Shown piece after piece: positions 30,110 through 32,853 of a stretch of 40,705 nucleotides of DNA. Made by a program: the position numbers and the translations under genes. The notes beneath the pieces are model-generated. The model made no database searches. It was given only the letters and a program-made list of their open reading frames with translations, and was not told the DNA's origin. Each line of letters starts with the position of its first letter. Within the stretch, counting starts at the first letter, position 1. This stretch comes from Candidatus Rokuibacteriota bacterium (GTDB taxonomy: Bacteria; Methylomirabilota; Methylomirabilia; Rokubacteriales; CSP1-6), in assembly GCA_003221515.1 (NCBI GenBank), contig QHSI01000116.1, positions 1-40,705 of the forward strand, read 5' to 3'.

Positions 30110-31771
30110 GTGACCACCGTCGACGTCCGGCGCCTCCGGCTCGGCGCCTCGTTCGTCCTCCTCACCTACCTGACCCTTCATCTGAGCAACCACGCCCTGG
30201 GCCTCGTCTCGTTGGAGACGATGGAGGCCGGACAGCGGTGGTTCATCGCGCTCTGGCGGAACGCGCTCGGGACGCTGGCCCTCTACGGCGCCTTCACCGT
30301 TCACGGCGTGCTGGCCCTCTGGCTCCTCTACCGACGCGGCTCGCTGCGCATGCCCGCGTGGGAGGCGGCGCAATACGGGCTCGGCTTGGCGCTGCCGGCG
30401 TTGCTCGCGATCCACGTCGTGGGCACGCGGATCGCGTGGTGGCGCCTGGGCGCTGACGATCCCTATGCGCGCATCGTGCTCGGGCTCTGGGTCATCGGGC
30501 CACCGCGCGGGATCTGGCAGGCGACGACGCTCGTGATCGCATGGCTCCACGGCTGCATCGGCATGCACTACTGGCTTCGCTTCCGACCGTGGTATCCGCG
30601 GGCCGCGCCGTGGCTGCTCTGCGTCGCGCTGCTGCTACCGGTGCTGGCGCTTCTCGGCTTCGTGGCGGCCGGCCGTGAGGTCGCGGCGCTGGCGCGCACG
30701 CCCGGCTGGGTCGACACGCTGCTGCGCGAGACGCACGCGCCACGCCCGGCCGAGTCCGCGATGCTCGTGGCCATCCGCCAGACCTTCCTGAACGCGTACC
30801 TCGCGGCGCTGGTCGGCGTCCTGGTCGCGCGCGGAGTCCGCCGCCTCGCGCGGGGACGAGGCGCCATTCGGGTCACCTACCCGGACGGCCGCGTGGTGGC
30901 GGCACCGCGTGGGCTCACGATCCTCGAGGCGAGCCGCCTCGGCGGCATCCCGCACGCCTCGGTCTGCGGAGGCCGAGGGCGCTGCTCGACCTGTCGCGTG
31001 CGGGTCGTCCGCGGCCTGACTGAGCTCCCGCTGCCCCACGACGCCGAGCGGCGCGTGCTCGCGCGCGTCGGCGCCGCGCCGGACGTACGGCTCGCGTGTC
31101 AGACTCGACCGGTCAGCGATGTTGCGGTCCTGCCGCTCGTGGTGCCGACCGTGGAGCCGGCCGCGGCCATGACGCCCGACGCCCGTCAGGGGCGCGAGCG
31201 CGAGCTGGCGGTCCTGTTCGCCGATCTCCGCGGCTTCACGCGCATGGCCGAGAACAAACTGCCGTACGACGTCGTGTTCGTCCTCAACCGCTACTTCGCG
31301 ACGGTCGGCGCCGCCATCGCCGGCGCCGGCGGGATCGCCAACCAGTTCACCGGCGACGGCGTGATGGCGCTCTTCGGCGTCGACGACGGGCCCGCCGCCG
31401 GGTGCCGCCACGCGCTGGCGGCCGCCCGGGCGATGGCCGAGGGCGTCGCCGCGCTGAGCCGCGAGCTCGCCCCCGAGCTGGCGACACCGATGCGGATCGG
31501 GATCGGCATCCACGCCGGACCGGCGGTGGTCGGCTGGATGGGCTGGGGCGAGAGCTTCTATCTGACCGCGGTCGGCGACACCGTGCACGTCGCCGCCCGG
31601 CTCGAGCAGGCGACCAAGGACTACGACTGCGAGCTGGTCATCTCCGAGGACGTGGCCACGCGCGCCGGACTGAACGCCGCGTCGTTCCCGCGCCACGAGG
31701 TCGCGTTGCGCAACCGCGCGACGCCGGTGGTGGTGCGCGTCGTCGCGCGGGCGGCCGGCTTGGCTACGTGA
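30110..31771 (+). CDS. Membrane adenylate cyclase with His-rich anchor and 2Fe-2S domain
   Basis: The 553-residue protein has three modules. Residues 1-about 260 are membrane helices with His24/His28, His65, His102 and His147/His153, an arrangement like the diheme-b anchor of succinate dehydrogenase and of redox-regulated CyaC of Sinorhizobium. Residues about 262-335 form a ferredoxin domain with Cys286, Cys292, Cys295 and Cys330. Residues 365-553 are a class III nucleotide cyclase with metal aspartates Asp372 and Asp416. The adenine-selecting Lys is Gln412 and the transition-state Asn is His493, while Arg497 is kept. It probably makes cAMP in response to quinone or redox state. GTG 30110 was chosen by homology, since the frame is open further upstream. 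Confidence 0.88.
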   Translation: MTTVDVRRLRLGASFVLLTYLTLHLSNHALGLVSLETMEAGQRWFIALWRNALGTLALYGAFTVHGVLALWLLYRRGSLRMPAWEAAQYGLGLALPALLAIHVVGTRIAWWRLGADDPYARIVLGLWVIGPPRGIWQATTLVIAWLHGCIGMHYWLRFRPWYPRAAPWLLCVALLLPVLALLGFVAAGREVAALARTPGWVDTLLRETHAPRPAESAMLVAIRQTFLNAYLAALVGVLVARGVRRLARGRGAIRVTYPDGRVVAAPRGLTILEASRLGGIPHASVCGGRGRCSTCRVRVVRGLTELPLPHDAERRVLARVGAAPDVRLACQTRPVSDVAVLPLVVPTVEPAAAMTPDARQGRERELAVLFADLRGFTRMAENKLPYDVVFVLNRYFATVGAAIAGAGGIANQFTGDGVMALFGVDDGPAAGCRHALAAARAMAEGVAALSRELAPELATPMRIGIGIHAGPAVVGWMGWGESFYLTAVGDTVHVAARLEQATKDYDCELVISEDVATRAGLNAASFPRHEVALRNRATPVVVRVVARAAGLAT

Positions 31772-32825
31772 GGATCCGGTCGTAGCGGCCGTACTCGCGC
31801 GCCGCGTCCATCATCCACTTGACGCAGTCGGGGTTGGCCCGCGGCGGCAGCTCGCACGAGGTCGAGAGCACGAAGCGCGAGCGCTTGCCGACCGTGTCGA
31901 TGCAACGGCGCACCTCGGCCTCGACCTCCGCCTTGGTGGCGCGCTCGAAGATCGTCACGTCGACGTTGCCGATCGCGACCACGTTGCGCTGGTTGCCGAG
32001 CGTGACGAGCTTGTCGAGCTGGTCCACCTTCAATGCCGGATCGCCTTGCTGGTCGAGATCGATCGTGATCGCCACGAAGCCGACGTCGACCAGGTCCTCG
32101 TGGATCTGGTGCGTGGTCCCGCAGATGTGGACGGTCGTGCCGACCTTCTTCGCCCGGAAGTACTCCACCAGCTCCTTGTGGTAGGGCTTGATGAACTCGC
32201 GGTACGTGTCCGGCCCCACCAGCGAGCAGGACGCCGTCGGGTCGGTGTAGCTGAGCCCGATCTTCGTCGCGAGCACGGCGTCGCCGAGGCGCTTGGCATA
32301 CTCGGTGGAGAAGCGCATGAGCTCGTGGACGAACGGGGGATCGTCGATCGTGTCCAGGCACATCAGCTCGGGGTTGCGCAGGAGCATCGCGATGGTCCAC
32401 GGCCCCACCAGCACCGCGCCGAGCGCGCTCGGGAACCGGGCCGCCGAGAGCGCCTCGCACTGCTCGAGAAAGGCGGGCAGCCGCCCGTCTCGGCGCGGAT
32501 CGGGGATCTCCAGGCTCGCGAGCTTGGCCTTGTCGTCCTGGAGCACGTGCTGGTCGATCGACGGCACGACGTAGTCGGAGTACTTCACGTGGCAGCCCAC
32601 CGCCTCCGCCTCCTTGGCGAGGTCGTTGAAGGCGATCATGATGTCGGGCTGGTAGCGCTCGTAGTAGTTGAGCATCGCCTTGACGGCCTTGGTGGGATTC
32701 GTGCAGTACTCCTCGATCGACAGCCCGTCGAGGCAGCCGGCGAACGAGCCCGCGATCGGGTACGCCGGCACGCGGTCGGCGAAGCCCCCCTTGTAGGCCG
32801 CGACCACGCGCTCCCGTCCGGTCAC
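31764..32825 (-). CDS. Uroporphyrinogen decarboxylase family protein, MtaA/CmuA-like methyltransferase
   Basis: This 353-residue UroD-fold protein has His233-x-Cys235 in VHICG and Cys324 in TSCELPP, matching the His-Cys-Cys zinc set of methylcobamide:thiol methyltransferases (MtaA, MtbA, CmuA) rather than true haem-pathway UroD. It may move a methyl group between a corrinoid protein and a thiol, but no corrinoid protein is in the window. I chose GTG 32825 (TGRERVV, the usual family start) because GGAAGG precedes it and the -10 box overlaps the ATG at 32846. Its end overlaps the cyclase gene convergently by 8 nt. Confidence 0.87.
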   Translation of the reverse strand: MTGRERVVAAYKGGFADRVPAYPIAGSFAGCLDGLSIEEYCTNPTKAVKAMLNYYERYQPDIMIAFNDLAKEAEAVGCHVKYSDYVVPSIDQHVLQDDKAKLASLEIPDPRRDGRLPAFLEQCEALSAARFPSALGAVLVGPWTIAMLLRNPELMCLDTIDDPPFVHELMRFSTEYAKRLGDAVLATKIGLSYTDPTASCSLVGPDTYREFIKPYHKELVEYFRAKKVGTTVHICGTTHQIHEDLVDVGFVAITIDLDQQGDPALKVDQLDKLVTLGNQRNVVAIGNVDVTIFERATKAEVEAEVRRCIDTVGKRSRFVLSTSCELPPRANPDCVKWMMDAAREYGRYDRILT

Positions 32826-32844
32826 CGTGCCTTCCACGTGCGTC

Positions 32845-32853
32845 ATTTTAGCA
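32845..32853 (-). promoter_or_regulatory. Extended -10 box for the MtaA/UroD-like gene
   Basis: TGCTAAAAT on the minus strand (TGn plus TAAAAT) ends 19 nt before GTG 32825. It overlaps the ATG at 32846, which argues against that codon as the start. Confidence 0.5.

Follow-up and report, generated by a model that had tools for sequence, protein, structure and literature searches.

The locus at positions 30110..31771 (plus strand) of a Rokubacterial contig raises the question of whether a single polypeptide couples redox state to a cyclic nucleotide, and of what the replacement of two of the usual active site residues means for its output. Within the window, the whole 40,705-nucleotide stretch of DNA that was analyzed, this open reading frame encodes a protein of 553 aa, classed as a CyaC-type redox-regulated class III nucleotide cyclase, with a GTG start that is matched by ATG at the equivalent place in an orthologue with 93% identity (L009). 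Conservation in 87 homologues, together with dN/dS values of 0.1-0.6, excludes a chance or wrong-frame ORF. Pfam, AlphaFold2 (mean pLDDT of 88 for the whole protein) and full-length alignment all gave the same domain order, with a six-transmembrane (6TM) anchor followed by a [2Fe-2S] ferredoxin and a class III cyclase. A preliminary description of the locus had proposed that a haem-type anchor, a ferredoxin and a cyclase act here as one redox-to-cyclic-nucleotide chain, and both the domains and the family to which the protein belongs support this at the level of sequence.

The architecture as such is not a novelty, being already represented by CyaC of Sinorhizobium meliloti and by a ferredoxin-linked 6TM cluster reported in 2016. 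S. meliloti CyaC (SMc01818) contains two haems b, with a [2Fe-2S] cluster indicated, responds to ubiquinone in its activity, forms cAMP and binds both CycR and Clr, the former independently of nucleotide (PMC10463352). It has the same 6TM anchor, [2Fe-2S] ferredoxin and class III cyclase in the same order, so that the preliminary description was right to name it as a precedent but understated the match in calling it merely the nearest one. The 2016 study placed 30 class IIIb cyclases in its cluster 1, where a ferredoxin separates a cytochrome-b-like 6TM anchor from the catalytic domain and four intramembrane histidines are predicted to hold two haems (PMC4821796). Members such as Rhodopseudomonas palustris Q132R4, which was compared by description, share the architecture of the 553-aa protein; the cluster is drawn from alpha- and beta-proteobacteria, whereas the present protein is Rokubacterial and has a Gln/His active site.

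For residue-level comparison the orthologue from Sinorhizobium sp. M103 (possible start codon TTG) was used as a stand-in for S. meliloti CyaC, as the residue numbers match, with its key residues at the positions published for CyaC (K410/T484/N491/R495). The two proteins are homologous over their full length, with 245 of 545 aligned residues identical (∼45%), and the orthologue shares the four Fe-S cysteines and the equivalents of H24, H28, H65, H102, H147, T486, and R497. It differs in that K410 corresponds to Q412, N491 to H493 and the neighboring Asp to N411, with Trp at the position of H153, and the present gene adjoins trpB-like and URO-D genes. The K/T substrate pair and N/R transition-state pair of the studied CyaC are thus Q/T and H/R here, and are not family-defining. 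A further 17 orthologues from related genomes are 57-93% identical, and the best-matching public sequence for this locus, among the matches listed, is Candidatus Rokuibacteriota AR31, also at 93%. Matches at E ≤ 1e-30 were found in 21 of the 59 genomes related to the host genome, a few of them through the cyclase domain only. Relatives occur in 55 of the 151 genomes sampled around a Rhizobium, and the anchor-ferredoxin part has relatives encoded in at least 562 matched stretches of public genomes. The 553-aa protein can be assigned to the CyaC family as a true and well-conserved member, and what is new, as read from the alignments, is its conserved N-Q/His active site, a lineage variant of a known design.

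The anchor (residues 1-250; 30110..30859, plus strand) resembles the SdhC b558 family and was modeled by AlphaFold2 with a pLDDT of 96.6 as six long helices (residues 3-32, 52-75, 83-113, 131-156, 162-195, and 213-248), consistent with a 6TM anchor. Histidines are found at positions 24, 28, 65, 102, 147, and 153, and all six are invariant in the 18 sequences from the host genome and its relatives. Across the wider set of homologues H24, H28, H65, and H147 are present in 87/87 and H102 in 86/87; H153 is present in 58/87, being conserved only in the close clade, and is probably not a haem ligand. The six suitably placed histidines of the preliminary description are therefore all there, but as a set of six haem histidines they are ruled out by the variation at H153. 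Their conservation in close homologues had been named beforehand as a point on which the proposal could fail, and for five of the six this conservation reaches well past the close homologues.

The intramembrane histidines that could serve two haems are thus H24, H65, H102, and H147, plus H28, and all are present in the Sinorhizobium orthologue. Counting helices from a cytoplasmic N terminus, and placing residues by helix order and charge pattern, H24 and H102 would be nearer the periplasmic end of the modeled helices, with H65 and H147 nearer the cytoplasmic one. The predicted haem pairs are H24/H102 and H65/H147, with one histidine per helix on four helices. Two pairs arranged in this way are found in the di-haem SdhC. 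H28, which is invariant, sits one turn from H24; no partner for it stands out, and a quinone site could lie close to it.

The likeness to the SdhC b558 family (TIGR02046; di-haem SDH/FRD anchors) consists of four helices that each carry one conserved histidine; unlike those anchors, the present one has six helices and is fused to a ferredoxin and a cyclase, with no flavoprotein or iron-sulfur SDH subunits. TIGR02046 matched 20 of 54 CyaC family members, weakly (best E of 4e-5, all those examined being far below the cut-off of 96 bits) and in a co-linear manner, and gave no match to the anchor of the 553-aa protein itself. A Foldseek search of the anchor model against solved structures, SDH/FRD anchors included, returned no match at E ≤ 0.001, a PDB profile search with the anchor found no significant structure, and in hhalign/HMM comparisons with SdhC of related genomes shuffled controls scored equally well. 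As its own anchor fails in all four comparisons, the link to SdhC is drawn from other family members and the literature, and the sequence support for it is modest.

The ferredoxin domain (residues ∼252-345; 30863..31144, plus strand) is matched by Pfam Fer2 at residues 259-334 with an E value of 3.7e-10, above the cut-off, and also matches NqrF and ISC ferredoxin. The predicted Fe-S ligands, C286, C292, C295, and C330, are invariant in 87/87 homologues; the first three make up the C-x5-C-x2-C motif that had already been recognized, although the fourth had been omitted. H282 (∼30953-30955), located just before the Fe-S loop in the segment IPHASVCGG, is equally invariant (87/87) and is, to our knowledge, not a known [2Fe-2S] ligand.

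The class III cyclase catalytic domain (residues ∼361-545; 31190..31744, plus strand), delimited by Pfam and a residue census, is matched by Pfam Guanylate_cyc at residues 364-505 (E value of 3.5e-12, above the cut-off). The closest solved structures are the soluble adenylyl cyclase of Arthrospira platensis (1wc1), which is also named CyaC but is a different protein from that of S. meliloti, and the Synechocystis guanylyl cyclase Cya2 (2w01). Its active site is composed of the metal-binding D372 and D416, Q412 in place of the usual Lys, T486, H493 in place of the usual Asn, and R497. D372, D416, D490, and R497 are invariant in all scorable homologues and T486 is found in 85/86. The N411-Q412 codons (31340..31345, plus strand) replace the canonical D-K pair of CyaC in the alignment, and the H493 codon (31586..31588, plus strand) replaces that of the transition-state Asn (N491 in S. 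meliloti CyaC). Both substitutions had been noted in the preliminary description, and both prove to be conserved in the lineage.

Among the 86 scorable homologues Lys has been lost in 35, all with Gln in its place, and Asn in 23, where position 493 is His (Asn in the other 63). The two positions occur in three combinations, K-N (51 sequences, nearly all alphaproteobacterial), Q-N (12), and Q-H (23), with no case of K-H. The Q-H set consists of all 21 scorable Rokubacterial sequences, in which the change is thus fixed lineage-wide, together with one Nitrospinota and one betaproteobacterial genome. The residue beside the Lys position covaries, with D-K in 51/51 K-N sequences and N-Q in 23/23 Q-H sequences, and position 535 changes from Gly to Asn along with the N-Q/His change. 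In a tree built with these two columns left out each trait requires four changes; the absence of K-H fits Gln having arisen before His, in a tree that is unrooted and weakly resolved at this point. That one and the same sensor naturally carries K-N, Q-N, or Q-H at its active site offers a ready comparison for replacement of the Lys and of the transition-state Asn, and the distribution extends CyaC-type signaling from the respiratory chain to cyclic nucleotides into Nitrospinota and Rokubacteria, a largely uncultured soil group.

The two substitutions are not equally unusual. In other class III cyclases of the host and related genomes Gln occupies the Lys position in 6 of 24 scorable sequences, whereas Asn is kept in 24/24, which makes Gln412 ordinary and His493 the rarer change; both are altered catalytic residues as described, but Gln412 taken alone is unremarkable. 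Loss of the Asn is nonetheless compatible with catalysis in this class, since Ma1120, which has Ala there, is an active cyclase whose activity is harmed when Asn is put back (PMC4215837). Ma1120 (Mycobacterium avium) and Rv0386 (Mycobacterium tuberculosis) are, like the 553-aa protein, cyclases with non-canonical active sites, both being active adenylyl cyclases, but their regulatory domains are unrelated to those found here. Neither is known to us to combine Gln with His.

Taken together, the protein is probably an active class III cyclase of the CyaC family, regulated by quinone or redox state, with a di-haem anchor and most likely making cAMP, a reading that draws on the sequences and on analogy with CyaC. 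The di-haem state, Fe-S cluster, quinone response and cAMP product are carried over from the published S. meliloti enzyme, and we infer the same chemistry, haem pairing and product for the 553-aa protein. The six-helix anchor would most likely hold two b haems, with H24 of helix 1 and H102 of helix 3 ligating one toward the periplasmic side, and H65 of helix 2 and H147 of helix 4 ligating the other toward the cytoplasmic side. Electron exchange with the quinone pool would alter the redox state of the haems and the [2Fe-2S] cluster, and this change, passed on through helix 6 and the ferredoxin, would set the activity of a cytoplasmic homodimeric cyclase. With T486, both metal aspartates and R497 retained the product would most likely be cAMP; N411-Q412, a neutral pair in place of the charged D-K, could still hydrogen-bond adenine, and H493 would stand in for the Asn that orients the substrate.

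An anchor devoid of haem, with the six helices sensing a lipid or another ligand and the histidines serving structure only, would agree with the weak sequence link to SdhC and with the lack of a significant match between the anchor model and a solved di-haem protein. This appears highly improbable, given five histidines that are invariant or present in 86/87 homologues down to about 45% identity, the published di-haem nature of CyaC (PMC10463352), and the two haems independently predicted for the cluster of ferredoxin-linked cyclases (PMC4821796). It is also quite unlikely that the cyclase is weak or dead and that the protein serves instead as a scaffold or binding partner dependent on redox state. 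Two catalytic site residues are altered, and S. meliloti CyaC does form complexes with transcription regulators, binding CycR without nucleotide (PMC10463352); against this stand the invariance of Asp372, Asp416, Asp490, and Arg497 in all scorable homologues and a Thr486 conserved in 85/86. Moreover, purifying selection acts on the cyclase domain (dN/dS of 0.10-0.38), which argues against its decay, and the dN/dS of this domain is as low as or lower than that of the anchor in seven of eight pairs.

The nature of the product is a further point on which readings diverge. The same sensor could drive a cyclase that uses both ATP and GTP, or that produces cGMP, through loss of the adenine-selecting Lys: the K to Q change together with the neighboring D to N removes a charged pair, Gln is present in 35/86 scorable family members, and one of the closest structures is that of the guanylyl cyclase Cya2. 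We regard such a cyclase as unlikely, as Gln is common at this position in class III cyclases of related genomes and the second selecting residue, T486, is T484 in the cAMP-forming CyaC. Rv0386 has Gln at the Lys position, and its published description is of an adenylyl cyclase that selects its substrate in a novel way. In guanylyl cyclases the Lys position is normally occupied by Glu, and its partner is a residue other than Asp (C, S, T, H, A, or G) (PMC4215837); here the former is Gln412 and the latter T486, a residue found in both kinds of enzyme. With Thr486 and Arg497 kept and Glu absent at 412, cAMP is the likeliest predicted product. There is a small chance that N-Q/H493 instead marks a lineage-specific CyaC subtype with an output unlike that of CyaC, either in nucleotide choice or in a mechanism in which His493 would be catalytic in place of Asn.

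A TrpB-like, PLP-dependent gene (PF00291; 28698..30080, plus strand) ends 29 bp upstream of the cyclase, and a trpB homologue is directly upstream in eight Rokubacterial loci, making it a possible operon partner within one transcription unit. Downstream, a URO-D-type gene on the minus strand (31764-32846) overlaps the cyclase stop by 8 bases. No neighbor gave a functional hint, trpB, URO-D and others being retained with the cyclase only among Rokubacteria, and a wider gene-cluster search around cyaC relatives returned Rhizobium-specific neighbors only. In that Rhizobium group (L047:6677-7555, L059, L061, L062, L064, and L070) a conserved ORF of ∼292 aa directly follows cyaC and is possibly a CycR-like partner or regulator. 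The host genome also encodes five cNMP-binding-domain proteins, possible receivers of a cAMP signal, and roughly a dozen class III cyclases besides this one, so that the present enzyme is one input among many.

Several relatives depart from the common pattern. The gene annotated cyaCa on plasmid pA of Rhizobium etli CIAT 652 (L117:3836-5554) does not encode the HxxNH motif of helix 1 that is present in all aligned relatives, and its first ∼45 residues are seemingly out of frame; either helix 1 has been lost or the record may contain a frameshift. A CyaC cyclase-domain remnant with the motif TAVGDTVHVAARLE and a disrupted N-terminal half (L030, G008:C143:13656-14174) is likely a pseudogene, the same genome having an intact copy (L017). 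One genome of Methylobacterium planeticum has two CyaC-type copies (L087 and L065), both with the Gln and Asn active site, and the first of these carries Ala at the otherwise invariant T486 position.
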